This document shows positions 2,581 to 52,603 of a stretch of DNA of 64,000 nucleotides, piece after piece. A model generated the notes under the pieces. That model was not told the origin of the DNA. It saw nothing but the letters and a program-made list of their open reading frames with translations, and did no database searches. The stretch's first letter is position 1. Each line of letters begins with the position of its first letter. The DNA is taken from assembly GCF_000022545.1 (NCBI RefSeq), contig NC_012883.1:1356276-1420275 (forward strand), given 5' to 3'. The translations under genes were made by a program, and so were the position numbers. This DNA comes from Thermococcus sibiricus MM 739 (lineage in GTDB: Archaea; Methanobacteriota_B; Thermococci; Thermococcales; Thermococcaceae).

Positions 2581-5448
2581 TTAAAAGTTAAATAGACTCT
2601 TAACATCATAATGTGCTTTTCTCGCCTTTTTTACTTTCAAATCCATTCCAAAGGCGTTTGTGACAGTTCCTTCTTTTTCTGCCCAGAGCCCGCTTGGCAG
2701 TATTAGGTATTCTCCTTTTAGTTTACTTATCGCAGGTGAGTTTCCTATGACAACGTAAGCTTTCGCCTCTGGTATACCCGTAACTCCTGCCTTTATTAAT
2801 CCCGTAGCATTCACTCCATCGTGTAGGATTAAAGTTGGCACGTCCATAGGCTCAGCTGGGCCTTCAATTATTGCCACTTCGTAGCCCTCTTCTACTATTT
2901 CTTTGCCCTTCAGCAGCAGCTTTAGGAGAGGATATTTCTCTATGTTAACTTTTAGGAGGACGCGCTTTGCATTTCTAATGTCTTCAAGAGTTGCGGTTGA
3001 ACCCTCACCATCAATGGTTGAGCCTATTGGAATTCCCTTTCTTTCCGCTAGCTCTTTTAGGAACATTATCTCTTCATTTGTAAGAGAGGGCGTGAGTATT
3101 AGAGCACATTCTTTTTCTTCTAGGAACTTTTCAGCGTCTTCCCAGCTTACTGCATTTCCTTTCAGAATTGGCTGGGCGATGTCTTGGGCCCATGGCCTTT
3201 CAAAGCGACAGTAATCGCAAATGTATCCATTCCACGAGTCTTTTCTGCTTGAGGCCCTAACCAAGATGTCGTTGTAAACCTCTATGTTCATCTCGCATGC
3301 AAATGAACATCCGTTGCACACTGTCTTCACCGGCTGGGTCTTCCAAGGACCGGGTTTAACGAATGGAAGCTTTTCAGTTATTGCCCCAACAGGACAAATG
3401 TCAGTAAGTTCTCCAATGAACACTCCTTTTTGATCTTCCAATCTCTCTCCTAACTGGGGTCCAATATACGTCTTAAAGCCTCTGAACAGATAATCTACGA
3501 TGCCTTCTCTGGCAATCTCATGGGTGAAATTGACACACTGGCCACAAAGAACACACTTGTTGTTATCTAGCACAACGTTGGGATGAGTCTCGTCGATTTC
3601 AAATTTGTTCTGCTCTCCTACAAATGCATCCTGTTTTGCATCATAAAGCGTTGCATATTCTCTGAGCTTACATCTAAAGACCTCCATGCACCCGCAACTC
3701 ATGCACCTCTGAGCTTCTGTAAGAACTGTTTCCTCATCCATTGTTGGTTCAACTTCCTTGAAATTGCTCTTTCTAATTTCCGGGTCAAGGAGCTTTACCT
3801 TTACCCTTGGCTTTCTCTCCACATGTTCATAGTCCTTCTCAGTTACTTTCTTCCAGTGGTTGTAGGGCCTTAAGTCAAAGAGCACTCTGTAGAGGTCTTC
3901 GTCATATATAACTTCCTCAATGTGCTTTGATGGATCTAAAAGCACCTCTCTTGCTTTTTCAAGCTTGCCCTTCAAATAGAGATCTATCATAATTGCGGCT
4001 CTTCTTCCAGTTGCAATACTTTCTATAACCGTGGATGGGCCTAATACTAAATCTCCACCAGCAAAAACTCCTTCCTTATTCGTTTGGAGTGTCACTTCGT
4101 CTACGAGAACTCTCCCACGTTTTGCTTCGATGCCAATGGTTCTCAAGAACTCCTCATCACAGTATTGACCTATAGCAAGGATAACATTATCTACTTTTAC
4201 TCTGAACTCTGAGCCCTCTATTGGCATCGGGCGTCTTCTACCACTTGCGTCTGGTTCGCCTAGCTTCATTTTTATGAGTTCAACTTCTTCCACTTTCTCC
4301 TTACCGATGATTTTTACGGGATTAGTGAGGAACATGAACTTAACCCCTTCCTCTTCCGCCTCTTCCACTTCTCTCGAATTTGCAGGCATTTCACTCTTTG
4401 ATCTTCTATAAACCACCGTGACATCTGCTCCAAGTCTCAGTGCAGTCCTTGCAACATCCATAGCTGTATTTCCACCACCCACTACAATGACCCTCTTTCC
4501 AAGTTCAACCTTCTCCCCCATATTGACCTTTCTGAGAAATTCTGTGCCGTGAATAACACCATCAAGGTCTTCACCTTCTATCCCCATCTTCCTACTCTTC
4601 CATGCACCCACTCCAAGAAATACTGCGTCATATTGCTCTCTAAGCTCTTCCAAGGCAATATCTTTTCCCAGAGCAGTGTTGGTTTTCACCTCTATGCCCG
4701 TATTTATTACCGTCGCTATGTCTTTATCAAGCACGTCTTTCGGGAGTCTGTAAGGGGGTATACCATAACGCATCATTCCTCCGAGATGAGGCATTGCATC
4801 AAAAATTGTCACATCATGCCCCATGGTTCTCAGGTAATAGGCACATGCTAGTCCTGCAGGACCACCTCCGACAACCGCAATCCTTTTGCCGGTTGATGGG
4901 GGGATCTCTGGCATCCATGGGCCGTTTTCGAGATCATAATCAGCAGCAAATCTTTTCAATTGTCTTATAGCTAGAGGCTCCTCTACAAGGTTTCTCCTAC
5001 ATTCTTCCTCACAGAATGCCGGACATACTCTTCCAAGAACTGCCGGGAGGATATATTTTTCTTTCATTAATTTTACAGCTTCGTGGTATCTGCCCATAGC
5101 TATTAACGCGAGGTACCCCTGTACATCACTGTGGGCTGGACAGCCATTTTGACATGGCCCGATACAATCCCCATAGTGATCAGAAAGAATTAATTCCAAA
5201 GCAGTTTTTCTCATTTCTATTATTTCATCACTCAATGTCTCAATTGAAAGCCCTTCCATAGGTTTGAGGGTACATGAGGTTGTAATCCCTCTTGGAGTCT
5301 GTACCAAGCATAGACGACAGGAACCATATGGGTCAAAGGCCTCAGTGTAACAAAAGCCAGGCACGTGAGTTATTTCCCTGAGAAACTCGATAAGGGATTT
5401 ATCTTTGGGAGCTTCAAATTCCTTTCCGTTGACAGTAATCTTGACCAT
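2581..5448 (-). CDS. NuoG/GltD-type fusion subunit of a NAD(P)H:ferredoxin flavoenzyme (Bfu/NfnABC-like A subunit)
   Basis: A 955-residue multidomain redox protein. In order: plant-type [2Fe-2S] domain (C33, C44, C47, C59); a cysteine-rich linker (CIGPCQNGCPAH, about 95-110); a GltD/NfnL-type FAD-NAD(P)H module (about 190-500) with two dinucleotide motifs, VVGGGPAGLACAYYL and VVGGGNTAMDVA, and the NADPH-typical YRRSKSEMPA; iron-sulfur segments (CMSCGC, CVLCGQC, DICPVGAI, about 590-720); and a shrunken NuoG/formate-dehydrogenase-like C-terminus starting with CNGCSFACEMN. It is the last gene of a three-gene operon; its ATG lies one base after the preceding stop behind a GGAGGGTGA site. Family knowledge suggests electron transfer, possibly bifurcation, among NAD(H), NADP(H) and ferredoxin. 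The exact reaction is inferred. Confidence 0.85.
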   Translation of the reverse strand: MVKITVNGKEFEAPKDKSLIEFLREITHVPGFCYTEAFDPYGSCRLCLVQTPRGITTSCTLKPMEGLSIETLSDEIIEMRKTALELILSDHYGDCIGPCQNGCPAHSDVQGYLALIAMGRYHEAVKLMKEKYILPAVLGRVCPAFCEEECRRNLVEEPLAIRQLKRFAADYDLENGPWMPEIPPSTGKRIAVVGGGPAGLACAYYLRTMGHDVTIFDAMPHLGGMMRYGIPPYRLPKDVLDKDIATVINTGIEVKTNTALGKDIALEELREQYDAVFLGVGAWKSRKMGIEGEDLDGVIHGTEFLRKVNMGEKVELGKRVIVVGGGNTAMDVARTALRLGADVTVVYRRSKSEMPANSREVEEAEEEGVKFMFLTNPVKIIGKEKVEEVELIKMKLGEPDASGRRRPMPIEGSEFRVKVDNVILAIGQYCDEEFLRTIGIEAKRGRVLVDEVTLQTNKEGVFAGGDLVLGPSTVIESIATGRRAAIMIDLYLKGKLEKAREVLLDPSKHIEEVIYDEDLYRVLFDLRPYNHWKKVTEKDYEHVERKPRVKVKLLDPEIRKSNFKEVEPTMDEETVLTEAQRCMSCGCMEVFRCKLREYATLYDAKQDAFVGEQNKFEIDETHPNVVLDNNKCVLCGQCVNFTHEIAREGIVDYLFRGFKTYIGPQLGERLEDQKGVFIGELTDICPVGAITEKLPFVKPGPWKTQPVKTVCNGCSFACEMNIEVYNDILVRASSRKDSWNGYICDYCRFERPWAQDIAQPILKGNAVSWEDAEKFLEEKECALILTPSLTNEEIMFLKELAERKGIPIGSTIDGEGSTATLEDIRNAKRVLLKVNIEKYPLLKLLLKGKEIVEEGYEVAIIEGPAEPMDVPTLILHDGVNATGLIKAGVTGIPEAKAYVVIGNSPAISKLKGEYLILPSGLWAEKEGTVTNAFGMDLKVKKARKAHYDVKSLFNF

Positions 5449-5449
5449 C

Positions 5450-7258
5450 TCACTCACCCTCCTTCTTGGCATCGGTTATTTCTATTGCATTAAAGCGACA
5501 CACCTCATAGCAGGTTCCGCACTTTATGCATGCCTCTTGATTTATTAAGTGTGGCTTCCCTCTTTCTCCACTGATGGCCTTCACTGGGCACATTATTGCA
5601 CATGCAGTACAACCTGTGCACTTTTCGGTAATTATAACGTATTTTATGAGAGGTTTACAGACTTTAGCTGGACATCTTCCTTCTATGTGTGCTAAATACT
5701 CATCTTTAAAGTATTTTAAAGTTGTAAGAACTGGATTTGGTGCCGTTTGCCCTAGTCCACAGAGAGAGCCAGTTTTAACTAATGGTGCAAGCTTTTCAAG
5801 TTTCTCAATATCTTCCAAAGCCCCCTCGCCTTTTGTAATTTTATCAAGGAGTTCCCACATCCTCTTAGTTCCTAAACGACAGAAAGTACACTTTCCACAA
5901 GACTCCTTCACAGTGAAGTCTAAGAAGAATTTTGCAACATCAACCATGCACGTGTCTTCGTCCATAACCACCATTCCGCCACTTCCCATTATTGCACCTG
6001 TTGCAGTGACACTCTCGTAATCAACGGGAGTATTAAACAGATAATCAGGAATACATCCTCCTGACGGGCCTCCAAGCTGAACTGCCTTTATTTTCTTACC
6101 CGTTTTAGTTCCCCCTCCAATCTCATAAAGTATCTCCCTCAACGTGATACCCATCGGAACCTCTACGTTTCCACCGTGTTTGATCTTTCCAGAGAGAGCA
6201 AAAACTTTCGTGCCTTTGCTCTTTTCTGTCCCAAGAGCAGCATATGCCTCCCAGCCATGTTTTATTATCCATGGCACATTTGCCCAAGTTTCAACGTTGT
6301 TTATATTGGTTGGTCTTCCCCAAAGCCCCTTCTGAGCAGGATAAGGTGGTCTTGGTCTTGGCATTCCCCTCTTTCCTTCAATAGATGCTATCAGTGCAGT
6401 CTCCTCTCCACAAACAAAAGCACCCGCACCCTCTTTTATTACAATTTCGAAGGAAAAACCGCTTCCTAATATGTTCTCTCCCAAAAACCCTTTTTCTCTT
6501 GCCTGCTTTAATGCTATTCTGAGTCTCTTTATGGCAAGTGGATACTCCGCTCTCACATAGATAAACCCTTTTGTAGCTCCAATAGCATAAGCGCCAATAA
6601 TCATCCCTTCTATAACCCTATGCGGATCTCCTTCCAACACGTTTCTGTCCATGAAAGCACCCGGGTCCCCTTCATCGGCATTGCAAACTATGTATTTTTC
6701 ATCTCCTGGAGCATCTCTGGTGAACTTCCATTTAAGGCCCGTTGGAAATCCGGCCCCTCCTCTTCCCCTGAGTCCGGATTTTGTTATGAAATCTATTATC
6801 TCCTCAGGTTTCATTTTGAAAGCCTTTTTGAGAGCCTCATAACCTCCAGCTGCTATGTATTCTTCTATGTTCTCCGGATCTATGTATCCTGAATTCTCTA
6901 ACACTATTTTTTTCTGCTTTACAAAATATCCATCAAAATCCCAGGTTTTTCTTTGTCCGTTTTCCCACCAGTCCTTTTTGACAACCCAATCTTCTATGGG
7001 TTTTCCGTTTATAACGTGCTCTTCTATTATTCGCGGCACTCTATCGGGTGTAACGTGACCATAGGTAATGATCTCGTTATCGGTAATAATGTCAAGAAGA
7101 GGTTCTCTGTAACACATCCCTACGCAGCCCACTATTTTGAGCTTGATGTCGAGGTTTCTCTTCTCCAGTTCTTCTTTCACAGCTTCATACGTTTCTCTAG
7201 CTCCAGCTGCAATTCCACAGGAGTTCATTCCCACAGCGATAGCCTTAATTTCAGACAT
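5450..7258 (-). CDS. NuoF-like FMN/NADH-binding subunit (BfuB-like)
   Basis: A 602-residue protein that should carry the NADH site and the flavin of the flavoenzyme. It has an N-terminal thioredoxin-like [2Fe-2S] domain (MNSCGI, CVGMCY), the FMN loop GRGGAGFPTGLKW (about 165-178), the NADH-binding GAGAFVCGEETAL, a [4Fe-4S] cluster site (SCGKCTFCRLGT, SLCGLGQ), and a C-terminal ferredoxin domain with two CxxCxxCxxxC motifs (CTGCTACAIMC, CIKCGTCYEVC). This architecture is that of the HydB/BfuB family, where the flavin and neighbouring clusters form the proposed bifurcation site. Its start overlaps the preceding NuoE-like stop by 8 bases and has a GAGGGG ribosome site. Confidence 0.9.
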   Translation of the reverse strand: MSEIKAIAVGMNSCGIAAGARETYEAVKEELEKRNLDIKLKIVGCVGMCYREPLLDIITDNEIITYGHVTPDRVPRIIEEHVINGKPIEDWVVKKDWWENGQRKTWDFDGYFVKQKKIVLENSGYIDPENIEEYIAAGGYEALKKAFKMKPEEIIDFITKSGLRGRGGAGFPTGLKWKFTRDAPGDEKYIVCNADEGDPGAFMDRNVLEGDPHRVIEGMIIGAYAIGATKGFIYVRAEYPLAIKRLRIALKQAREKGFLGENILGSGFSFEIVIKEGAGAFVCGEETALIASIEGKRGMPRPRPPYPAQKGLWGRPTNINNVETWANVPWIIKHGWEAYAALGTEKSKGTKVFALSGKIKHGGNVEVPMGITLREILYEIGGGTKTGKKIKAVQLGGPSGGCIPDYLFNTPVDYESVTATGAIMGSGGMVVMDEDTCMVDVAKFFLDFTVKESCGKCTFCRLGTKRMWELLDKITKGEGALEDIEKLEKLAPLVKTGSLCGLGQTAPNPVLTTLKYFKDEYLAHIEGRCPAKVCKPLIKYVIITEKCTGCTACAIMCPVKAISGERGKPHLINQEACIKCGTCYEVCRFNAIEITDAKKEGE

Positions 7259-8881: not shown

Positions 8882-9744
8882 CCTTCCAAACACATGATGC
8901 AAGGATTTTAGAGGTAAAAGAACTAACTCCAAGAGAAAAACTCTTCACTCTTCGCTTCGTTGATCCTGAAATCAACAGAAACTTCAAATACAAACCTGGA
9001 CAGTTTGTCATTGTCGATATTCGTGGCTTTGGAGAATTCCCAATTAGCCTATGCTCCACTCCCACCAGAGAAGGCTATTTCCAGCTCTGTGTTAGAAGGG
9101 TCGGCAGAATGACAAAATATATGCAAGAGCTCAAAGAAGGCGATATAGTTGGCATTAGAGGCCCTTATGGCAACGGCTTTCCAATGGAGAAGATGGAAGG
9201 CTCAACTTTGATTCTGGTTGCAGGCGGATTGGGAATGGCTCCTCTGAGATCTGTCCTCTGGTATGCCTTAGATACGGGGAAATATGAGAATATATACCTC
9301 TTCTACGGCACAAAGGCCTACGAGGATATCCTCTTCAGAGAAGAGGTGATCCACCTCCTTAAGCACGGTGAAGACATGAAATGTCACGTGAAACTTGCCT
9401 ATGAGGTGGAAAGTCCTTCATGTATATATCTAGAGAAGGGCTACTCACCAAGAGTTTGTAAGGGAGTTGTCACGGATCTCTTTAGAGGAGAAAACTTTGA
9501 TGTAGAAAATACATATGCTTTGATATGTGGTCCTCCAGTGATGTATAAGTTTGTCATCAAGGAGCTCTTAGACAGAAAGTTATCTCCAGGGAGAATTTAC
9601 ATGACTCTTGAAAGGAGAATGCGTTGTGGAGTCGGCAAATGCGGGCACTGCATCGTTGGAACGAGCACCTCAATTAAGTACGTGTGCAAAGATGGTCCTG
9701 TCTTCACTTATTGGGATGCACTTTCAACTAGGGGGCTGATATGA
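8878..9744 (+). CDS. shyC: Sulfhydrogenase gamma subunit, FAD/NAD(P)H oxidoreductase
   Basis: A 288-residue ferredoxin-NADP reductase-like subunit that exchanges electrons with NAD(P)H. It shows the FNR-type fold: the beta-barrel with YKPGQFVIVD (about 37-46), the flavin/pyrimidine motif GGLGMAPLRSVL (about 116-127), a CGPPVMYKFV nucleotide-site motif (about 218-227) and a C-terminal [2Fe-2S] motif RRMRCGVGKCGHC (about 242-254). Related to dihydroorotate dehydrogenase electron-transfer subunit PyrK and AsrB. Overlaps both neighbours by four bases, so translation is probably coupled. Confidence 0.92.
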   Translation: MTFQTHDARILEVKELTPREKLFTLRFVDPEINRNFKYKPGQFVIVDIRGFGEFPISLCSTPTREGYFQLCVRRVGRMTKYMQELKEGDIVGIRGPYGNGFPMEKMEGSTLILVAGGLGMAPLRSVLWYALDTGKYENIYLFYGTKAYEDILFREEVIHLLKHGEDMKCHVKLAYEVESPSCIYLEKGYSPRVCKGVVTDLFRGENFDVENTYALICGPPVMYKFVIKELLDRKLSPGRIYMTLERRMRCGVGKCGHCIVGTSTSIKYVCKDGPVFTYWDALSTRGLI

Positions 9745-10481
9745 TGCTTAAGCTTGGTGTTTTTGAGCTGACCGATTGTGGGGGCTGTGCACTTAATATC
9801 CTCTTCCTCTATGAAAAACTCTTTGACTTGCTTGAGTTCTATGAAATAAAAGAGTTCCACATGGCATCGAGCTTTAAAGAACACGACACCTTAGATATTG
9901 CGATAGTAACAGGAAGTGTCTCAACTCAGAGGGATCTTGACTTGCTCCACTATGCGAGGAACCATTCTAACTACCTCATTGCATTGGGAACATGTGCTAC
10001 TCATGGGGATGTTCAAGCAAGTGTCGAGGGGAAAATTAGAGATAAGCTTGAAAAAGTCTACGGCACGAAAGCAAACCCCATGAAAGCTTTGGATTCAACT
10101 CCAATAGTTCAACATGTTGCCGTTGACTATGCTATGCCGGGTTGCCCTTATGATAAGGATGAGATTTATCAGGTTCTCATGAATCTGGCCAAAGGGATTG
10201 AACCACCAACAAAGGACTATCCATTATGTGTAGAGTGCAAACTCAATGAATACGAGTGTGTTCTTGTCAAGAGGGGCATTCCCTGTTTAGGTCCGATAAC
10301 ACTCGGGGGATGCAATGCCATATGCGTAAAATCCCAGCTTGGGTGTATTGGATGCAGAGGGCCCATACCAAAGGAAGCCAACCCTGCGAGTGAGTTCGAA
10401 ATTCTCAAGGAGCTTGGCTACGATGAAGAGTACCTCCGGAGGAAGTTCAAAACTTTTGCACGGGGTGAGCTAAGATGGTGA
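9741..10481 (+). CDS. shyD: Sulfhydrogenase delta subunit, NiFe hydrogenase small subunit
   Basis: The 246-residue small subunit relays electrons through Fe-S clusters next to the NiFe site. The proximal-cluster cysteines begin with FELTDCGGCALN (about 8-19), followed by GTCATHGD (about 93-100) and PGCPYDKDE (about 135-143). A C-terminal cysteine-rich part (CVECKLNEYEC, CLGPITLGGCNAIC, CIGCRGP) binds further clusters. The FELTDCGGC type of N-terminus resembles hydrogenase II of P. furiosus rather than hydrogenase I, from family memory. The start overlaps the shyC stop (ATGA); the next codon is also ATG and could be used. Confidence 0.9.
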   Translation: MMLKLGVFELTDCGGCALNILFLYEKLFDLLEFYEIKEFHMASSFKEHDTLDIAIVTGSVSTQRDLDLLHYARNHSNYLIALGTCATHGDVQASVEGKIRDKLEKVYGTKANPMKALDSTPIVQHVAVDYAMPGCPYDKDEIYQVLMNLAKGIEPPTKDYPLCVECKLNEYECVLVKRGIPCLGPITLGGCNAICVKSQLGCIGCRGPIPKEANPASEFEILKELGYDEEYLRRKFKTFARGELRW

Positions 10482-44979: not shown

Positions 44980-45810
44980 TTCACTTTTTATCCTACTTAC
45001 CACCAATGTGCCCACAGTTATTAAAATAAATCCAATCATATGATAAGACGTGAAGGTCTCTCCCAACACTATAGCAACCCCAATTGCTACTGCTGGGGCG
45101 GGTGTAATTATAGCAGTGGCTTTTGAAAGGTTTATGCGCTTTATTGACAGATACCACACAACTTGGCCTAGAGAAAGAATAAGGGCTTCAGCTATTGCAA
45201 ATTTTGAAAATTCAAGTCCCCGAGGAAGTGCCAAGAGCAATAATAATATTCCTCCGAAGGTATTTCTAAAAGCTGCTATGAGGAATGGATTATATGGGAG
45301 TCTCTTTGCTATCACGTGGCCACTTTGCCAAAATAATGGAACCAGAAGAAGGAGTAAATCGCCTTTTCTAGGAACAATAGCTTTTCCTTGGGTTATCACC
45401 AACGTGAGGCCTAAAAGGATTAAAATAGACCAGAGAATTTGATTCTTTGTTATTTTTTCTCGCAGTATGATATAAGACAACACAAAAGAAAAGAGTACCT
45501 CAGCTCTCGTTATTAATGAAGCATTTATCGCTGTGCTAAGTTGCGCTCCATAGGAATATGCTATGTATGCCAATGCAGTCCCGAATACTCCTACTAGAGC
45601 AGCTTTTGGAATATATTGTGGACTTTCTCTGGCTTCTTTCCAGCTTGAAGTCGAGAATACAATTGGCCACAAGATAAGAGAAGCAATAATTGCGGAAAAT
45701 GCAGCAAAACTCATAGGATTTGTGGGATTTGCTTTTATGACTACTGGTTCTATTCCGTATAGAAACATTCCTAAAAAAGCTAAAAATGTGCCTTCAGTCT
45801 CTCTGTTCAT
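44962..45810 (-). CDS. EamA/DMT-family transporter
   Basis: A 282-residue membrane protein with ten predicted transmembrane helices in two EamA repeats (first about 8-130, second about 145-275). EamA proteins move amino acids, nucleotides or metabolites out of or into the cell; the substrate cannot be read from sequence. It overlaps the end of the upstream PqqD-like gene by 17 bases and converges with the aminotransferase gene, overlapping by 18 bases. The ATG at 45810 follows GGTGG by four or five bases; a second ATG nine bases earlier lies directly on the ribosome site. Confidence 0.83.
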   Translation of the reverse strand: MNRETEGTFLAFLGMFLYGIEPVVIKANPTNPMSFAAFSAIIASLILWPIVFSTSSWKEARESPQYIPKAALVGVFGTALAYIAYSYGAQLSTAINASLITRAEVLFSFVLSYIILREKITKNQILWSILILLGLTLVITQGKAIVPRKGDLLLLLVPLFWQSGHVIAKRLPYNPFLIAAFRNTFGGILLLLLALPRGLEFSKFAIAEALILSLGQVVWYLSIKRINLSKATAIITPAPAVAIGVAIVLGETFTSYHMIGFILITVGTLVVSRIKSELKESS

Positions 45811-46132
45811 CCCATCCACCCAAGAGAATCAAGTTTCTCTTGTATAACTCGAGAATAAATGTTACAAGACGCTCATATAACGGTTCTGCCTCTTCACCAA
45901 ATCTCTCCTTCACTTTCTTTCCAATTTGCTCTATTGTTCTTGTACCATCACAAAGGTCCCATACAAAAGTTCCCAGCTCATCCAGTTCAAGTCGCCTATA
46001 CTCACCATGGAGTTTTCTCGCAAGGAAGTCCAATTTGGATTTCATTGGGATTAGAAGGTAATGTTTACCATTAATTTCTCTCAGCTCAATTTCATCATTT
46101 CTTTTTGGGATAAGTGTGAGATATTCATCCAT
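45794..46132 (-). CDS. PqqD-like (RRE-fold) protein
   Basis: A 112-residue protein of the PqqD-like family. The winged-helix pattern is visible: RLELDELGTFVWDLCDGTRTIEQIGKKVKERF (in parts, about 48-79), then a helix that ends the domain (LYERLVTFILELYKRNLILL). PqqD-like domains bind leader peptides in RiPP pathways, but many archaeal stand-alone copies have no known partner. It sits between tRNA-Ser and the EamA transporter and overlaps the latter, suggesting a shared transcript. A second PqqD-like gene lies 5 kb away in the RiPP cluster; the two are only distantly alike. Confidence 0.7.
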   Translation of the reverse strand: MDEYLTLIPKRNDEIELREINGKHYLLIPMKSKLDFLARKLHGEYRRLELDELGTFVWDLCDGTRTIEQIGKKVKERFGEEAEPLYERLVTFILELYKRNLILLGGWDEQRD

Positions 46133-47946: not shown

Positions 47947-47993
47947 CTTAACACACCTCCAAAGTTATACCTAACTCTATTCACCTAAGTGGG

Positions 47994-48002
47994 TTTTTAA
48001 AG
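47994..48002 (-). promoter_or_regulatory. TATA box of the EF-1alpha gene
   Basis: Minus-strand CTTTAAAAA lies about 50 bases before the tuf ATG, giving a leader of about 24 bases with GGAGGT. The upstream context AGAAAG is a reasonable purine-rich BRE. Confidence 0.65.
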
Positions 48003-48017
48003 CTTTCTCTAAACCTC

Positions 48018-48058
48018 GGCTCTCTCAAGCGGGAAACCCGCATCTGTTTGAGAGAGCC
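48018..48058. repeat. Strong bulged hairpin upstream of tuf
   Basis: GGCTCTCTCAA (48018-48028) pairs perfectly with TTGAGAGAGCC (48048-48058). Directly inside, GCGGG (48029-48033) pairs with CCCGC (48037-48041) around an AAA loop; six bases (48042-48047) are bulged. This gives 16 base pairs in a 41-base element, GC-richer than its surroundings. It lies between the tuf TATA box and another minus-strand TATA-like element near 48090-48096, so it may be part of a small RNA or an upstream tuf leader. I cannot assign it to a known RNA family. Confidence 0.6.
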
Positions 48059-48120
48059 TCATGAGTTCATGTTTGGATAAAACCTAGGGTTTAAAAAATT
48101 AACTAAAATTATACGGCTCG

Positions 48121-48170
48121 CTGTTAGAATAAGCTAACGAATAATATCAGAAACTTTATCCTAACAGTAT
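48121..48170 (+). repeat. Left flanking repeat of the RiPP cluster
   Basis: This segment aligns with 51482-51537 on the other side of the cluster, in the same orientation. The first 36 positions align without gaps with about a dozen differences, and all of those differences are transitions; the end (TATCCTAACAGT versus TATTCTAAACAGT) aligns after a short gap. Each copy is also an imperfect palindrome: CTGTTAGAATAA here faces TTATCCTAACAG. Such diverged direct repeats suggest that the cluster was inserted or excised as a unit. Confidence 0.55.
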
Positions 48171-48217
48171 TTGATGGGAACTAGGGTTCATTTACATAAG
48201 CTCTCAATACCCAAAAG

Positions 48218-48796
48218 TTACTTTAATATTTCCACCAAAAACGCAATCTTATCATTGAAAAACGTATGAATGTTATGAGTCAAAAGTAACTTTAATAAGC
48301 TTATGGAGCATGTTTTAAGATTGGATGGATCTAATATTATGACTTCGTTCTCTAAGCATATCTCCTTTTTTTCTAAAAATACTCCACATACAGCATGTGA
48401 AGCCTCAAAAACACTTTCTCCTTTGTGAAGAAGCAAAAATACATATACTTCCCGTTCTGAGAATCCCAGTCCCCTCAATATAGAAGCCTCAAGAATAGAA
48501 ATTTGAAGACAATTCCCGCATCTTTGGCCTATGGTATTTAGAGGATGCAACTCATTATTATCTTTAATTGTTATAGTTGGGATGTAGCATATTTCTTTCA
48601 GTAGGTCTCTATGTAGCTTTTGAAGTCCTTTTTTATCATTCAACTTAATATTAGCAACCAGACGATTTGCAATATCGGGTATAATATACTTTGAAATCGC
48701 CAATGGAGGAACTTTGTAAAGTATTATTCTTTGACCATTATTGCAAAGAATAACCCTACAAACGTCATCATGGAAGCCGCTAATATAGTCAACCAT
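48218..48796 (-). CDS. Transglutaminase-fold cysteine peptidase of the RiPP cluster (putative leader peptidase)
   Basis: A 192-residue protein whose central part fits the transglutaminase-like fold: GNC96 in RCGNCLQISILEASILRGLG, then H134 in ASHAVCGVFL, then D156 in VIILDPSN, the order and spacing of a Cys-His-Asp triad. The helix and strand pattern resembles the McjB-type peptidase that removes leaders in lasso-peptide synthesis, though no lasso cyclase is present. Last gene of the operon. It overlaps the MFS gene by 73 bases; the ATG at 48796 follows GGAGGGTGG, the best ribosome site in the overlap. A TTG start beyond the overlap is possible but would remove a strand-rich N-terminus. Triad assignment is by eye; C93 is a second candidate. 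Confidence 0.65.
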   Translation of the reverse strand: MVDYISGFHDDVCRVILCNNGQRIILYKVPPLAISKYIIPDIANRLVANIKLNDKKGLQKLHRDLLKEICYIPTITIKDNNELHPLNTIGQRCGNCLQISILEASILRGLGFSEREVYVFLLLHKGESVFEASHAVCGVFLEKKEICLENEVIILDPSNLKTCSISLLKLLLTHNIHTFFNDKIAFLVEILK

Positions 48797-49899
48797 GGAT
48801 CCACCCTCCACAGCGCTCCCCATATTACGGGAGCAAAAATCCCAATTAAGCCGGGCAGAGTATTTAATGTGCCATAGGCAGTTGCTAAATACTCTTTTTG
48901 ATGTTTGGAAGTATAAACGCTATATGCAATGTTTGAGAGAGCCTCTCCAAAGAGCCCACTTAAAGCCAAGAATATGAGAGAATACGTGGGTGCATATTTG
49001 CTTAGGAGAGCAAACAGAGTCATCGTTATGCTATCCCCGAGGATATCTACAATAAAGGTCTTTTTGGGGCTGAGATAGTCCACCATAAAGCCCGCTACGA
49101 AGTACGCTACCAATACGAAAAATCTCGAAGCAGAGAAAACATTTACAATTACATCTGAATCGAGTTTCATCCAAGAGTCCAAGTAGGGATAAAGGAAAGT
49201 GTTGAAACACGAGCTGATAAATGCAGACAGACAGAAAAGGAGTGCTAACGGTGCGAGAGGGGTGTTTAACAGTTTTCTGAAGTCAGAATTTTTGATGCTA
49301 CTTATAATGTTCTTCTTTATCTCTGATGTAACTCCATTTAATGGACGCTTTTTAGGAAGAGTTTCCACGAGCATCAATCGAAAGAGAGATAAAATAAATA
49401 ACATCACTAACACGACGTACAAAACATATACAAAACCCAGCTTTTTAATTATCCAGTTCGTTAACATTGGACCAATAATCCATGCAACTGTGCTGGAGAC
49501 ATGAACCAATGAGAATACCCTACCCCGAATTTTTTCTTCTGTAGATTCAGCTATAAGTGCTGTAGTACCCGGACTAAAAAAGATTCCTATTGAGTGGAAG
49601 AGTATTAATGAAAGCATGATGGCGAGGGGATTTTTCATTAAAAGCAGTCCAAGAGTTGGTATCATGCTAAAAACAGACAACACTGCCATGGGTTTTCTCC
49701 CGAGACTATCGGCTATTAGTCCTCCAGAAAAGGAAAAGATTAAAGATAGGGCACCTGCTATAGACATTGAGAGTGCTAATTCAGAACTTCCCGCTTGATT
49801 GTTAACTAGTATAGGTAGGTATATGAAGAAATATGCTCTCACCATATTGATAGGAAAACCTGTTATTAGAATTATTAAGGGATTGTATTTGGGTTTCAT
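48724..49899 (-). CDS. MFS exporter of the RiPP cluster
   Basis: A 391-residue major-facilitator transporter with twelve predicted helices. The loop 2-3 signature reads GGLIADSLGRKPM (about 59-71), and the fifth-helix region (SSTVAWIIGPMLTNWII) carries the GP pair typical of drug-exporting MFS proteins. The second half repeats the pattern with VDYLSPKKTF. In this setting it is the likely exporter of the mature peptide. The ATG is preceded by GGTGATGAA, four bases after the radical SAM stop. AT-rich compared with the neighbouring translation genes. Confidence 0.82.
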   Translation of the reverse strand: MKPKYNPLIILITGFPINMVRAYFFIYLPILVNNQAGSSELALSMSIAGALSLIFSFSGGLIADSLGRKPMAVLSVFSMIPTLGLLLMKNPLAIMLSLILFHSIGIFFSPGTTALIAESTEEKIRGRVFSLVHVSSTVAWIIGPMLTNWIIKKLGFVYVLYVVLVMLFILSLFRLMLVETLPKKRPLNGVTSEIKKNIISSIKNSDFRKLLNTPLAPLALLFCLSAFISSCFNTFLYPYLDSWMKLDSDVIVNVFSASRFFVLVAYFVAGFMVDYLSPKKTFIVDILGDSITMTLFALLSKYAPTYSLIFLALSGLFGEALSNIAYSVYTSKHQKEYLATAYGTLNTLPGLIGIFAPVIWGALWRVDPWLTILAASMMTFVGLFFAIMVKE

Positions 49900-49903
49900 T
49901 TCA

Positions 49904-50971
49904 TCACCGTAACACTGAAGGATCTATAAATTCATGAGGAAACACTCCTTCCTCGAACAACTTTTGACATACTGGAAAGGACGCAGTAAATGATTTGTAC
50001 TCTTCATATGCAAATGCCGGACAAATATTTGCACAGTAGCTCCTTAGAATACATCCGCTGCAAATTCCTTGAAATTCATCAGGTTTTACTCTACGAAGCT
50101 CTCCTAAAAAACCTCTGCCACTATACCATATGTCTCTTAGGCTCTCTTCTTTTATATTTCCTATCACAGTCTCTGGGTATTCAATTCCTATGCCACATAA
50201 CGACACTCCTCCATCGGGTAAAATCCCAAGCATTTTTGTATAGTTGCATGCCATCCTTGAAATGTTTAGGTATCTCCTTCCGTATTTTGCGAGCAGATAA
50301 TGAGGTACCATAGACCATATTTTGCCAGGATATTTATCATATAGCTGGATTAAATACTCTATGAGTGTTTGGTATTGGGAGACAGACAGGGAAATATTAT
50401 TATGCCTAGCTCGGCCTATTGGGAGTATTGGATTAAATTTCACTGCCTTTGCTCCTAAACTCATAATTAAATCCGTTATCTCAAAAATGGAGTGTAAGTT
50501 GCGATTGAATACAGAAACTACAACAACTGGGGGTATACCTAGATCTCTAAGTTTTGGTATTACATCTAAAACCCTTCTGTATACTCTCTTCCCATGCCTG
50601 AACGCATTAAATTCAACTTCTGAGGGAAAATCTAAACTTAAACTTATGTCGATCTCATATTTTGCGAGCTCTTTTAATAGGGGTGGAGTAATTAGGGTTC
50701 CATTGGTTTCCAGCACTGTTTTAACCTTGCTGTTGTTTGCGACTTTTATAAGGGTTATTGCTAGATCACTTCGCAAAAGAGGTTCTCCTCCAGATATAAA
50801 AAGTGTATCAAGACCTAAGTCCAAGGCCTCATTAAAAGCATTAAGAAAATATTTGTCTTCCAGTTCGACCATAGGATATGTTCTACTAGCATTTATCCAA
50901 CAGTGCTCACATTGTAGGTTGCATGAACGTGTTAAATATACATGCAATATCTCTAGGGGTGGAGCATTCAT
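49904..50971 (-). CDS. Radical SAM/SPASM peptide maturase
   Basis: A 355-residue radical S-adenosylmethionine enzyme. The SAM-cluster cysteines are C17, C21 and C24 (CNLQCEHC), followed by the SAM-binding ISGGEPLL (59-66). The C-terminal SPASM domain has a full set of seven cysteines in the canonical spacing: C242 ... C259, then C304-x2-C307-x5-C313-x3-C317, then C335, enough for two auxiliary [4Fe-4S] clusters. Such enzymes install thioether or C-C links in RiPPs (sactipeptides, ranthipeptides, PQQ, mycofactocin). Its ATG overlaps the stop of the PqqD-like gene (ATGA), a fused recognition-maturase arrangement. The substrate is most likely the Cys-rich peptide encoded at 51304-51396. Confidence 0.9.
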   Translation of the reverse strand: MNAPPLEILHVYLTRSCNLQCEHCWINASRTYPMVELEDKYFLNAFNEALDLGLDTLFISGGEPLLRSDLAITLIKVANNSKVKTVLETNGTLITPPLLKELAKYEIDISLSLDFPSEVEFNAFRHGKRVYRRVLDVIPKLRDLGIPPVVVVSVFNRNLHSIFEITDLIMSLGAKAVKFNPILPIGRARHNNISLSVSQYQTLIEYLIQLYDKYPGKIWSMVPHYLLAKYGRRYLNISRMACNYTKMLGILPDGGVSLCGIGIEYPETVIGNIKEESLRDIWYSGRGFLGELRRVKPDEFQGICSGCILRSYCANICPAFAYEEYKSFTASFPVCQKLFEEGVFPHEFIDPSVLR

Positions 50972-51276
50972 TCACATGCCTCCTTATCGTTTTGGAGAAG
51001 GCCTAACTTTGACAAATGTTTAATAAACTCTAAAATGTCTTTGGTTATTATTTCAATGTCAATTTCTTCGTCTATGTCTTTCTTTACGTAATTTGCAATC
51101 TCTTTTATAGTTAAAGAGCCATTACTGTACTTTAGGACTAACTCCCCCATTTTATTAACCGTAAATATCCTTCCTGTAGAGTAATCATAGCATAATGCAT
51201 AATCTGAATAAGAAATTATATGGAGTGGTTTTATTTTGGGCTTATAAAAAGGAGAAAATAGAAGAGACTCTTCCAC
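50968..51276 (-). CDS. PqqD-like RiPP recognition protein
   Basis: A 102-residue stand-alone PqqD-like protein. After an N-terminal strand region (LHIISYSDYALCYDYSTGRIFTVNKMGE, in parts) comes the winged helix-turn-helix LVLKYSNGSLTIKEIANYVKK and a closing helix IITKDILEFIKHLSKLGLL. These RRE domains bind the leader of the precursor and present it to the maturase. It starts with GTG, seven bases after GGAGGT, 27 bases downstream of the precursor peptide stop, and its stop overlaps the radical SAM start. Confidence 0.8.
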   Translation of the reverse strand: MEESLLFSPFYKPKIKPLHIISYSDYALCYDYSTGRIFTVNKMGELVLKYSNGSLTIKEIANYVKKDIDEEIDIEIITKDILEFIKHLSKLGLLQNDKEACE

Positions 51277-51303
51277 AGTTCATACCTCCGCTACTGCTTT
51301 ACT

Positions 51304-51396
51304 TCACGTAACGCTAGGTCCGTTACAACAACCCCCTCCGGAACATGCCCTAACAATTTTGGTAAGTTCTTCTATTTTCGGCTTTTCATACTTCAT
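51304..51396 (-). CDS. Cysteine-rich RiPP precursor peptide, 30 residues
   Basis: A very short gene with a near-perfect ribosome site (GGAGGTGG, four bases before ATG 51396) and TGA stop at 51304-51306. The 30-residue product has a charged leader, MKYEKPKIEELTKIVR (residues 1-16), of the K-Y-x-x-P-x-I/V-E type seen in RiPP leaders, and a core A-C18-S-G-G-G-C23-C24-N-G-P-S-V-T rich in cysteine and glycine. It is the first gene of the operon with PqqD-like, radical SAM/SPASM, MFS and peptidase genes. The core suggests thioether cross-links at C18, C23 and C24. The mature structure and activity are unknown. Confidence 0.85.
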   Translation of the reverse strand: MKYEKPKIEELTKIVRACSGGGCCNGPSVT

Positions 51397-51433
51397 CTAA
51401 CCACCTCCGTTAGTTTTATAATTATTCTATATT

Positions 51434-51446
51434 ATTATATTTATTT
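51434..51446 (-). promoter_or_regulatory. TATA box of the RiPP operon
   Basis: The minus strand reads AAATAAATATAAT here, about 40-50 bases before the precursor ATG, which gives a leader of about 15 bases with GGAGGTGG. The region is extremely AT-rich, so the exact box is uncertain. Confidence 0.45.
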
Positions 51447-51451
51447 TTTTT

Positions 51452-51477
51452 GTTAACTTTTAGTTGTTAACTTTTAG
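51452..51477. repeat. Tandem 12-base repeat in the RiPP promoter
   Basis: GTTAACTTTTAG occurs twice exactly, at 51452-51463 and 51466-51477, separated by TT (14-base period). It lies immediately upstream of the RiPP TATA box. A partial third copy (GTTAAG) begins at 51484. Confidence 0.7.
51455..51471 (-). promoter_or_regulatory. SurR-type GTTn3AACn5GTT site in the RiPP promoter
   Basis: On the minus strand the bases read GTT-AAC-AAC-TAAAA-GTT, an exact fit to the SurR consensus. It overlaps the tandem repeat and lies just upstream of the TATA box, the same activating position as at the hydrogenase operon. Whether SurR or another regulator binds here is not shown by sequence. Confidence 0.45.
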
Positions 51478-51481
51478 AATA

Positions 51482-51537
51482 CTGTTAAGATAAGCTGATG
51501 GGCAATACTAGAAGTCTTGCTTAATATTCTAAACAGT
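51482..51537 (+). repeat. Right flanking repeat of the RiPP cluster
   Basis: Diverged direct copy of 48121-48170. It begins CTGTTAAGATAAGCT and ends TATTCTAAACAGT. The two copies bracket the whole operon including its promoter. The inner face of this copy and the end of the left copy also match as inverted repeats (TTATCTTAACAGTATT versus TTATCCTAACAGTATT). Confidence 0.55.
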
Positions 51538-51620
51538 GAATTCTTAGGCATCAAAGGTAAATTTCCGAACGAATAGTGTCTATTGGGATTACTACACAAA
51601 ATTCACGAAGCCTAGAATTC

Positions 51621-51740
51621 AAAGTTATTTTCTAACCTCAAACCAGCCCTCTCCTCTTAGCGTTTTTTCTTTCCAGCAGGGAAGTGTTATCTTTGAGTAT
51701 TCCAAATTTGGATCGTATACAACTACAACTTTATATACTT
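51621..51740 (-). pseudogene. Possible gene remnant (C-terminal fragment)
   Basis: The minus strand contains an open stretch of about 38 codons that reads like protein (YDPNLEYSKITLPCWKEK, then LRGEGWFEVRK and TAA) but has no usable start and is preceded by stops. It follows the beta-propeller-like gene on the same strand, so it could be the tail of a decayed neighbour. No match to a family was recognised. Confidence 0.35.
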
Positions 51741-51760
51741 AAAATTTTTTAGACTCCAAA

Positions 51761-52603
51761 TTAGAGCAGTGAATAGACTTTGTACGCCCTAATCTGTCCT
51801 GTATAGAAATCTTTCACGTATACCGTTTTGTTTACCACTACTACCTCTCTTGGGGTGTAATTTAACCTCTTGCATGCAAGCTTTATTAAATTCTTAGTAT
51901 AAACGCACAGTCCTCTTTTTTCATTCCCCTGGGGATTCACGAAGGAATACACTACTGCAACATACTTTTCTCCAGCTCCTACTCTAACAAGCATTCTTAA
52001 ATTTTCCCCTTTCCAAGGTTTTGCAGTCCTGATACCTTTTTCGAGTTTGTGCTCCTTTAGTAGATAAACATACCCCTCAGTAGTGGCAACATAGCTTAAA
52101 TCTCCTTTATCCTCAACGTCTGTTATTGATCCGGTTTTTGGGCAGAAATATCTGAAATTTCCATCTTCTACTTCAATCCAATAGACACACCCATCCCCAA
52201 GTATAATTTTCCCTTCATGATAAGACTCAAACCAGAGCCCCCTCCCAAGGTATCTTTCCCACTTTTTGTTCAATGCACTATCAAGAAAGACTATGTCAGT
52301 GCTGGGGGCATGAGGGTCTCCGGGATATCCAGCTATTAGGAGAACTCCCTCATGAAAGCAGAAGTATTCACCAAAGAACCCCTTAAGCGTGTATGTCTTC
52401 CCATTCACAGTAAAATTTACATAATTTTCCAGCCAGTTTCTCACTTCTTTAACCTCAATTTTTGCTGGACATTTCTCTAAATTTTCCTCTCCAAATTTGG
52501 GCATATTTTCGACTCTGGTTTCAATAATAATAGCCCTTGAGAAAAATACTGCATAGATTAGAAGAACAAGAACTGCTCCAAGGAGATACTTTTTAGGTCT
52601 CAT
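51761..52603 (-). CDS. Membrane-anchored beta-propeller-like protein
   Basis: A 280-residue protein with an N-terminal signal anchor (residues 5-25, KYLLGAVLVLLIYAVFFS in part) and an extracellular region with repeated strand patterns (EGVLLIAGYPGD, EGKIILGDGCVYWIEVEDGNFRYF, LSYVATTEGYVYLLKEHKL, EKYVAVVYSF), like a PQQ/WD40-type propeller of few blades. Six cysteines could form disulfides. The family is unknown to me. The ATG at 52603 follows GGGGGTCTGAG; the longer in-frame extension upstream overlaps the divergent promoter and is rejected. Divergent from the ATPase gene that follows. Confidence 0.65.
   Translation of the reverse strand: MRPKKYLLGAVLVLLIYAVFFSRAIIIETRVENMPKFGEENLEKCPAKIEVKEVRNWLENYVNFTVNGKTYTLKGFFGEYFCFHEGVLLIAGYPGDPHAPSTDIVFLDSALNKKWERYLGRGLWFESYHEGKIILGDGCVYWIEVEDGNFRYFCPKTGSITDVEDKGDLSYVATTEGYVYLLKEHKLEKGIRTAKPWKGENLRMLVRVGAGEKYVAVVYSFVNPQGNEKRGLCVYTKNLIKLACKRLNYTPREVVVVNKTVYVKDFYTGQIRAYKVYSLL

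Follow-up and report, generated by a model that had tools for sequence, protein, structure and literature searches.

The stretch analysed here is a 64,000-nucleotide piece of the genome of Thermococcus sibiricus MM 739 (NC_012883.1, positions 1,356,276 to 1,420,275), called the window below and numbered from its first letter. It carries a unit of five genes that probably constitutes a biosynthetic cluster for a ribosomally synthesized and post-translationally modified peptide (RiPP) with a radical S-adenosylmethionine (SAM) maturase, placed on a mobile island. All five genes lie on the minus strand, run in the same direction and span 48218-51396. Their order is peptide, PqqD-type RiPP recognition element (RRE), radical SAM/SPASM enzyme, major facilitator superfamily (MFS) protein and transglutaminase-like protein, and each gene of this tight array, which a first-pass annotation had proposed from the letters of the DNA, is present:

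51304-51396, minus strand: precursor peptide, 30 residues; open reading frame (ORF) translation MKYEKPKIEELTKIVRACSGGGCCNGPSVT, copies identical in four genomes
50968-51276, minus strand: PqqD-type RRE, 102 residues, GTG start; Pfam PqqD
49904-50971, minus strand: radical SAM/SPASM maturase, 355 residues; Pfam, CxxxCxxC plus seven more Cys
48724-49899, minus strand: MFS exporter, 391 residues; Pfam MFS_1
48218-48796, minus strand: transglutaminase-like cysteine protein, 192 residues; sub-threshold Pfam match, triad C96/H134/D156, start placed by its context

The RRE gene begins 27 bp past the stop of the peptide gene, the RRE and radical SAM genes overlap by ATGA, and the MFS gene starts 4 bp after the radical SAM gene; these two junctions and the overlap between the MFS and peptidase genes had been noted before and were confirmed. 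For the last gene the first ATG, at 48823, gives a 100-bp overlap with the MFS gene. The alternative ATG at 48796 has the Shine-Dalgarno-like GGAGGGTGG in front of it, reduces the overlap to 73 bp and appears the likelier start.

The precursor can be divided into a leader, MKYEKPKIEELTKIVRA, and a Cys-rich tail, CSGGGCCNGPSVT, with Cys 18, 23 and 24, where the border as drawn is a guess. Its ATG is preceded by GGAGGTGG, and the leader contains YEKPKI, a sequence of the YxxPxI type. The only acidic residues are E4, E9 and E10, with none past residue 10, and no NCBIfam model matches the peptide. Within the window 18 ORFs of 20-60 residues start with an ATG behind a Shine-Dalgarno sequence, and this peptide is the sole one with at least three Cys. 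A count over 32 related stretches (445 kb in total, one overlap of 7 kb included; 20 of them chosen for holding radical SAM genes, hence not a neutral sample) gave 93 such Shine-Dalgarno-bearing short ORFs, six of which have at least three Cys in the last 16 residues. Two of the six are copies of the window peptide, three lie beside other radical SAM genes (L126, L130, L137) and one is found in L140, a stretch without any CxxxCxxC protein of at least 250 residues. The pattern [YF]ExPx[IV] near the start was found in five of 125 Shine-Dalgarno-bearing short ORFs from 35 stretches (22 chosen for radical SAM genes, two overlapping by 7 kb), namely the window peptide with its two copies, and the L099 and L116 precursors described below. 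A peptide match in genome G040 was set aside, with an E value of 0.8 and a position within a 382-residue frame.

The first-pass annotation had read the next three genes as a PqqD-like RRE, a radical SAM enzyme with CxxxCxxC and seven SPASM cysteines, and an MFS protein. All three readings stand, with 26.9 bits for Pfam PqqD (cut-off 23.4), and with 80.2 bits for Radical_SAM, 30.8 bits for SPASM and 114.6 bits for MFS_1, each passing its cut-off. The maturase holds exactly ten Cys, 17/21/24 in the CxxxCxxC motif and 242/259/304/307/313/317/335, with CX2CX5CX3C at 304-317 in the SPASM region. The best NCBIfam match of the RRE is ScmD, and it also matches a lasso RRE model weakly (E 3e-4, below cut-off). 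For the radical SAM enzyme the top family is ScmF (TIGR04251) with 173.1 bits against a cut-off of 400, covering nearly the whole enzyme, followed by the haem-synthesis families AhbD and NirJ2 with 126 bits each; the scores for PqqE and the mycofactocin enzyme are 89.5 and 74.6 bits. Scores against maturases of sactipeptides and ranthipeptides are 67.5 bits for AlbA (cut-off 850), 71.7 for StsB (625) and 62.7 for PapB (340). No island protein reaches the cut-off of any NCBIfam family listed, the scores being read from the best 25 of 94 families. A tree of 23 radical SAM enzymes with long terminal branches, which did not include the enzyme of genome G461, groups the window enzyme with a ScmF-like archaeal enzyme and a Rhizobium plasmid enzyme (96/90), inside a larger group (98/95) that also contains the enzymes of genomes G255 and G044. 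A PDB sequence search returned PqqE and SkfB chains and two cytosylglucuronate decarboxylase chains. Matches were found in 384 of 72,556 plasmid records, all below 60% identity; the matching Rhizobium etli stretch carries no transglutaminase-like annotation, and the Caballeronia stretch carried no annotation. An anti-phage role was considered and rejected: among the four proteins scanned only the radical SAM enzyme matched, to viperin models with 59 bits at best, which is expected of a member of this superfamily.

The fifth protein had been described as a peptidase of McjB type. We accept, from its match and motif, that it likely belongs to the transglutaminase-like superfamily. It scores 19.6-19.8 bits against Transglut_core (PF01841, cut-off 23) and weakly, below cut-off, against DUF553. 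In an alignment with the L151 and L152 proteins, which are clear PF01841 members (55 and 42 bits), the Cys-His-Asp residues C96, H134 and D156 are invariant and in order. Membership in the McjB family is not accepted, because there is no match to Transglut_core3 (PF13471), which we take to be the family of McjB-type proteins, up to E = 1. A PDB sequence search gave nothing meaningful for this protein, and a plasmid search gave no match. A two-row profile run on 396 relatives matched nine genomes, the four carriers of the island, G082 and four weak cases. Two of the weak cases are the L151 and L152 proteins, and the other two, in G063 (a matched frame of 81 residues) and G320, were set aside, as were weak peptidase matches in G063 and G096 from a separate search. 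Compared with the copy in G082 over 160 codons, the rate of nonsynonymous change (dN) is 0.06 and that of synonymous change (dS) 0.25, a ratio of about 0.25 (Fisher p 2.7e-5 on rounded counts), which shows purifying selection on the protein.

The unit holds what marks a radical-SAM RiPP cluster, that is a short precursor near the radical SAM gene with the RRE gene between them, an RRE, and CxxxCxxC together with SPASM cysteines. It resembles the SynChlorMet (Scm) system in that ScmF is the best family for the maturase and ScmD for the RRE, and in the tree a ScmF-like archaeal enzyme is its neighbour (96/79; the label comes from the paired radical SAM gene of that enzyme). However, the score of the window enzyme is far short of the cut-off of 400, and beside its gene there is no second radical SAM gene (ScmE); what the cluster has instead is a Cys-rich precursor along with genes for a transglutaminase-like protein and an MFS protein. 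With lasso peptides it shares the YxxPx[LI] leader, a separate RRE and a transglutaminase-like cysteine protein. According to the passages cited, the RRE of lasso clusters binds YxxP leaders, and the transglutaminase-like protein removes the leader together with the RRE (PMC12710340, PMC10885120, PMC10368454). In contrast to those clusters, a radical SAM enzyme is used here, there is no acidic ring residue and PF13471 finds no match. The earlier statement that a lasso cyclase is absent holds for the island: no asparagine-synthetase-like cyclase was found by Pfam among the five island proteins and three neighbours, the rest of the genome not being searched. Since the tail contains no Asp or Glu, no lasso ring can form. 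A SPASM radical SAM enzyme acting on a Cys-rich tail is also what sactipeptides and ranthipeptides use, and their thioether chemistry is plausible for this cluster; unlike their maturases, the window enzyme stays well under the AlbA, StsB and PapB cut-offs, and its RRE is separate. A separate PqqD-type RRE alongside a radical SAM/SPASM enzyme is likewise found in the pyrroloquinoline quinone (PQQ) pathway (PqqA-PqqD-PqqE), where a separate PqqD serves PqqE in the part of the source cited (PMC8326336). The differences from PQQ are a precursor without an NCBIfam match, the lack of partner enzymes in the island and the presence of an MFS gene. Thus, the cluster appears to join two known parts, a leader, RRE and peptidase like those of lasso clusters and a SPASM maturase that would replace the cyclase. 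The peptidase pairing in this radical-SAM RiPP cluster is unusual.

We favour the reading as a radical-SAM RiPP cluster on a mobile island, to which we give a probability of roughly 0.78, and a precursor, an RRE, a SPASM maturase, an exporter and a candidate cysteine peptidase, as first proposed, are consistent with it. Gene order, domains, catalytic residues, purifying selection on the peptidase and the recent exchange of the block between species along with its flanks are shown by the data, whereas co-transcription of the five genes, the chemistry at each step, the place where the leader is cut and the function of the product are inferred from the sequence. The five genes would be transcribed from upstream of 51396, and the RRE would bind the leader through YEKPKI. 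The radical SAM/SPASM enzyme would then install at least one cross-link in the Cys-rich tail, most likely a thioether or a C-C bond in which Cys 18, 23 or 24 would be the obvious partner. The transglutaminase-like cysteine protein would remove the leader somewhere before or near Cys18. In lasso leaders the Tyr is placed at -17 from the cut (PMC10368454), and a cut at this spacing, at S19/G20, would lose Cys18, which makes another register likelier, for example before Cys18. Export would be the task of the MFS protein, which may in addition shield the producer. For the product an extracellular action, as a weapon or signal directed at close relatives, is most likely; it fits the exporter, the recent spread described below and the patchy occurrence in 4 of 13 genomes of the genus. 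A bolder proposal is that the cluster represents a RiPP class of its own, in which an archaeal peptide with Cys bridges is made by an RRE, a radical SAM enzyme of the ScmF branch and a transglutaminase-like protease, without a lasso cyclase, and that it is a killing-plus-immunity cassette that sweeps through Thermococcus by homologous recombination after mobilisation of the insertion sequence (IS) 6 type. We put this forward tentatively and regard it as rather unlikely in this full form.

The genes lie within an insertion of about 3.4 kb upstream of the sscA-tuf region. Its features and its neighbourhood are as follows:

48121-51536: inserted island, about 3.4 kb, absent at the site in all seven congeners fetched
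48121-48167: left border; the imperfect palindrome CTGTTAGAATAAGC...TTATCCTAACAG of 47 bp resembles the termini of IS6-type elements
51482-51536: right border, 55-bp imperfect palindrome CTGTTAAGATAAGC...GCTTAATATTCTAAACAG
48176-48187, plus strand: solo terminal repeat of a second IS type, GGGAACTAGGGT; matches with at most one mismatch are obtained from 19 of 100 shuffles
48085-51849: shared block; no difference between the window genome (G000) and G006, a single mismatch in G003, at 48776
47969-48069, minus strand: SscA RNA gene, the left neighbour between tuf and the island and outside the cluster; Rfam RF00063, 64.8 bits

None of the seven congeners fetched (G005, G007-G012) has the cluster at the tuf locus, and in G007 the site is uninterrupted, so that window position 48114 joins straight to 51530. 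Two further congeners with incomplete genomes gave no tuf match, and also no peptide match. Each border palindrome opens with a perfect CTGTTARRATAAGC, a 14-base pattern that was first read off these two sites and then recognised in other genomes. The two are the sole perfect matches in the window, a number reached by none of 100 shuffles; with up to two mismatches there are four window matches, which 18 of 100 shuffles reach and which is not unusual. In G002 the pattern occurs 39 times with at most one mismatch, against once for the reversed pattern, and since the pattern was read from its own sites, this count with its control is better evidence than the shuffles. Similar sequences terminate an insertion element in several congeners. 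Its transposase matches DDE_Tnp_IS240 with 54.7 bits, presumably marking the IS6 family. In G002 a copy of the second IS type, an element without a confirmed family, sits some 50 bp upstream of the peptide's ATG, accompanied by an 8-bp duplication. A target-site duplication of the island itself could not be defined.

The island is carried by 4 of 13 genomes of the genus in a peptide search (two of the nine non-carriers are less than 80% complete): T. sibiricus (G000), G002, G003 and G006. A radical SAM search in 61 genomes, including the window's own, matched all of them at E <= 0.001; full-length matches displayed with 100% identity were found in four, and the next-best match after these carriers has 32% identity. 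Among 396 relatives, a radical SAM enzyme of this type occurs in the same four genomes and as fragments in G082. All five reading frames are intact in each carrier, and the island is 100% identical to the window in G006 and 99.97% in G003 and G002. The rest of the 64-kb window, where alignable, shows 78.4% identity for G003 and 77.0% for G002, and tuf is 90-92% identical in G002, G003 and G006 (partial in G006). The identical block begins at 48085 (G003, G006) or 48029 (G002) and ends at 51849 (G003), at about 52690 (G006, with one mismatch at 51850) or at about 54000 (G002); exact runs against G003 measure 3073 and 691 bp. Because the identical block extends into flanking DNA of diverged species, recent spread by homologous recombination is indicated. 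Independent transposition is not favoured as the route, as the block passes the island ends on both sides. Contamination of the assemblies was rejected on the grounds that the flanks are diverged, two carriers are single-contig and the right end of the block is not the same in each pair. G082, which belongs to another genus, holds on two contigs the remains of an older copy, broken and about 91% identical. One remnant is a radical SAM piece with a stop and an indel, and the other is a separate peptidase piece that adjoins a frame with a TnpB/Cas12f-type TNB domain (54 bits). Among genome contigs outside the family, a close relative of the island was found in the metagenome-assembled genome Thermococcales 44_46 only, and viral contigs, plasmid DNA and phage DNA gave none. 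The Thermococcales host assumed in the first-pass annotation fits an identical copy in LGET01000119.1, 'Thermococcales archaeon 44_46'. The recent and nearly unchanged passage between related species suggests that the peptide is advantageous to its owner. A near-identical cassette in four otherwise diverged species is a testable case of selection on an archaeal peptide cassette, perhaps through competition between close relatives. The cluster also offers a compact and presumably heat-stable enzyme set for biochemistry, with a separate RRE, a radical SAM enzyme and a candidate leader peptidase.

Related gene sets occur elsewhere in Thermococcaceae. We found sister cassettes in 3 of 115 genomes of the phylum at E <= 1e-45:

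L099 7756-11213 (G027), L116 5931-8763 (G119) and L161 3494-6578 (G082): WGK-type cassettes, leader FExPx[IV]VPL

L099 and L116 contain a gene for a radical SAM/SPASM enzyme fused to an RRE, an MFS gene and the upstream peptides MKTLQFEKPKIVPLKSKKTQWTIWGLWGKLPL and MKGTPQFEEPQIVPLESEETEWTLWSVWGKDDPF, which were spotted by reading the flanks of the radical SAM genes before the motif was used. In the third, recovered with a loose motif filter, a peptide ...QFEEPQVVPLESEETQWALWSVWGKEFPGVS lies just upstream of a homologous radical SAM gene, which is likewise fused to an RRE and has an MFS-type gene as partner. All three cores are rich in Trp and contain WGK; against WgkB (cut-off 650) the G027 enzyme reaches 171 bits and the G119 enzyme 180. 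The chemistry of WGK peptides is reported from streptococci (PMC8326336; for tryglysin PMC8092268). The three cassettes are possibly archaeal relatives of these streptococcal peptides, from which they differ in their archaeal origin, extra Trp residues and WgkB scores below cut-off; the window peptide itself, also unlike them, has no WGK. Between the radical SAM and MFS genes of L099 lies an HExxH protein (9266-10048) that no Pfam or NCBIfam family matches, and it would occupy the slot that a leader peptidase would take. By reading, four other types of radical SAM gene with a candidate short precursor were found, against the impression in the first-pass annotation that such pathways are foreign to Thermococcales. 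That annotation also missed the island structure, the recent transfer between species and the other cassettes in Thermococcaceae. No paper on radical-SAM RiPPs of Thermococcales appeared among the literature matches listed, in a search outside of which most subscription journals lie. RiPPs of hyperthermophilic archaea seem little explored.

Distant relatives of the maturase are found in another archaeal phylum, where 8 of 300 genomes gave a match at E <= 1e-32. A short Cys-containing ORF judged a plausible precursor lies beside the radical SAM gene in three of the eight (G255, G461, G436). In G255 (L113 6635-8997) a radical SAM-MFS pair has the peptide MSELQRAILNHIQSINPDHVCIIGIVICDVG 4 bp upstream, and G461 (L170 5519-7873) shows the same arrangement with a matching, 58% identical peptide 14 bp upstream; both peptides share a conserved MSELQ...VICD.G just upstream of the radical SAM/SPASM gene. 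In G436 (L169 4078-6727), whose enzyme matches that of the window at E 5e-53, a Cys-rich ORF of 61 residues is followed by a TldD/PmbA-type protease on the strand opposite to the radical SAM gene, and a protease of this type also adjoins the radical SAM gene in the distant cassette L097. This branch of radical SAM enzymes is thus sometimes, not always, accompanied by small Cys peptides and varied proteases. Two further ORFs were seen at distant relatives: L171 holds an upstream candidate with two Cys (4803-4895), and in L174 (G657) a 49-residue ORF, MANTMLKELATTGCELASGVACAGPG...QGC, with three Cys lies just downstream of the radical SAM gene (5428-5577) and is a possible precursor.

Several points weigh against the RiPP reading. 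The peptidase is recognised by a sub-threshold score and a motif, and structure models were too poor for a fold search (mean pLDDT, predicted local distance difference test, of 46 for the radical SAM enzyme and 36 for the peptidase, the latter from a two-row alignment). The maturase also scores with AhbD and NirJ2, so that family membership alone cannot show a peptide substrate. The refuting condition named in the first-pass annotation, homologous radical SAM genes that consistently lack a Cys-rich short gene nearby, gave a mixed picture: in five of the eight distant genomes no convincing precursor was seen (L171 and L174, with short ORFs of at least two Cys nearby, and G459, whose contig stops at the radical SAM gene, are among them), the other three have a plausible one, and all four intact copies have the peptide. 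The peptide of G255 contains two Cys and lacks a YxxP leader. Finally, the four intact copies are nearly identical, so that no covariation between peptide and enzyme can be obtained. This likeness also leaves conservation of the peptide without a test, and 30-residue ORFs arise by chance, so one could suppose that the ORF is not a gene and that the enzyme modifies something else. We consider this quite improbable, given GGAGGTGG before the ATG, the unique place of the peptide among the Shine-Dalgarno-bearing short ORFs of the window, the RRE partner, and the recurrence of the leader pattern before other radical SAM genes.

The remaining alternatives keep the peptide and change its fate. Transglutaminase folds also make bonds, and the transglutaminase match here is only sub-threshold; the fifth protein might thus form a second link (isopeptide or ester) or serve immunity, while a host protease cuts the leader. 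The G255 and G461 cassettes have no peptidase gene between the radical SAM and MFS genes, which indicates that a host protease can suffice. However, the HExxH protein in the same slot of L099 and the TldD/PmbA-type proteases beside the radical SAM genes of L097 and L169 speak for a dedicated peptidase, as does the use of a transglutaminase-like protein with the RRE for leader removal that is reported for lasso clusters in the passages cited (PMC10885120, PMC10368454). We regard this alternative as unlikely. A peptide-derived intracellular redox cofactor like PQQ or mycofactocin would account for the PqqD-type RRE and for a maturase that resembles ScmF (173 bits), PqqE and the mycofactocin enzyme. 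It is improbable, since an MFS gene follows in the same direction, Pfam finds no oxidoreductase among the five island proteins, and the cluster travels as an accessory island present in 4 of 13 genomes of the genus. A lasso-like peptide with its cyclase encoded elsewhere in the genome would explain the YxxPxI leader, the RRE with its weak, below cut-off lasso match and the transglutaminase-like protein, but the tail past residue 10 has no Asp or Glu, the island has no cyclase gene and PF13471 is not matched, which makes this option very improbable.

Other arrangements were seen in Thermococcaceae besides the WGK-type cassettes. In L130 5667-7225 (G018) and L126 5218-6673 (G007) radical SAM genes have the upstream short peptides MAKIEYVVRRRSSEYKGTKEDVPFVCAACLICISAILRGK and MAGIIYFKERKYSEYKGNTEELPFVCAFCMVCTQSVIKLT, the former with a second, longer peptide beside it, and are followed by apparent parts of ATP-binding cassette (ABC) transporters, judged by eye, as another type of Cys-peptide cassette. 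Radical SAM genes beside an ABC exporter lie in L137 5355-8527 (G036), L133 6117-9252 (G006) and L135 4065-7543 (G002), with the exporter confirmed by Pfam in G036 and G006. The upstream peptides end in ...GGSGNYCCCNKVNTN (G036) and ...GGVGLACCCDKVGK (G006), and the G036 enzyme scores 161 bits against PapB, below cut-off; in L135 no such peptide was seen and an IS-type frame lies directly upstream of the radical SAM gene. A further candidate cassette type, without Cys, is found in L128 5464-7057 (G015) and L134 5730-7384 (G008), where a radical SAM gene has two upstream short ORFs, MSY[LV]PPVGGDVG... and ...PPIGEDLGH.... A decaying cassette in L121 4832-8347 (G008) consists of a broken radical SAM gene, a PqqD-type gene (43 bits), an intact radical SAM-like gene and an MFS-like gene, and adjoins frames resembling the transposases of the IS6-type element and of the second IS.

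Two observations concern the surroundings of the cluster in the window. About 2 kb past its left end, 45794-46132 encodes a second PqqD-type protein (47.7 bits), whose gene adjoins an EamA transporter gene and a tRNA-Ser gene and has no radical SAM gene directly beside it. Two GTTAAC palindromes with starts 14 bp apart (51452-51471) directly precede the peptide gene's A+T-rich promoter region and form a possible operator; the IS insertion site in G002 touches the first of them.

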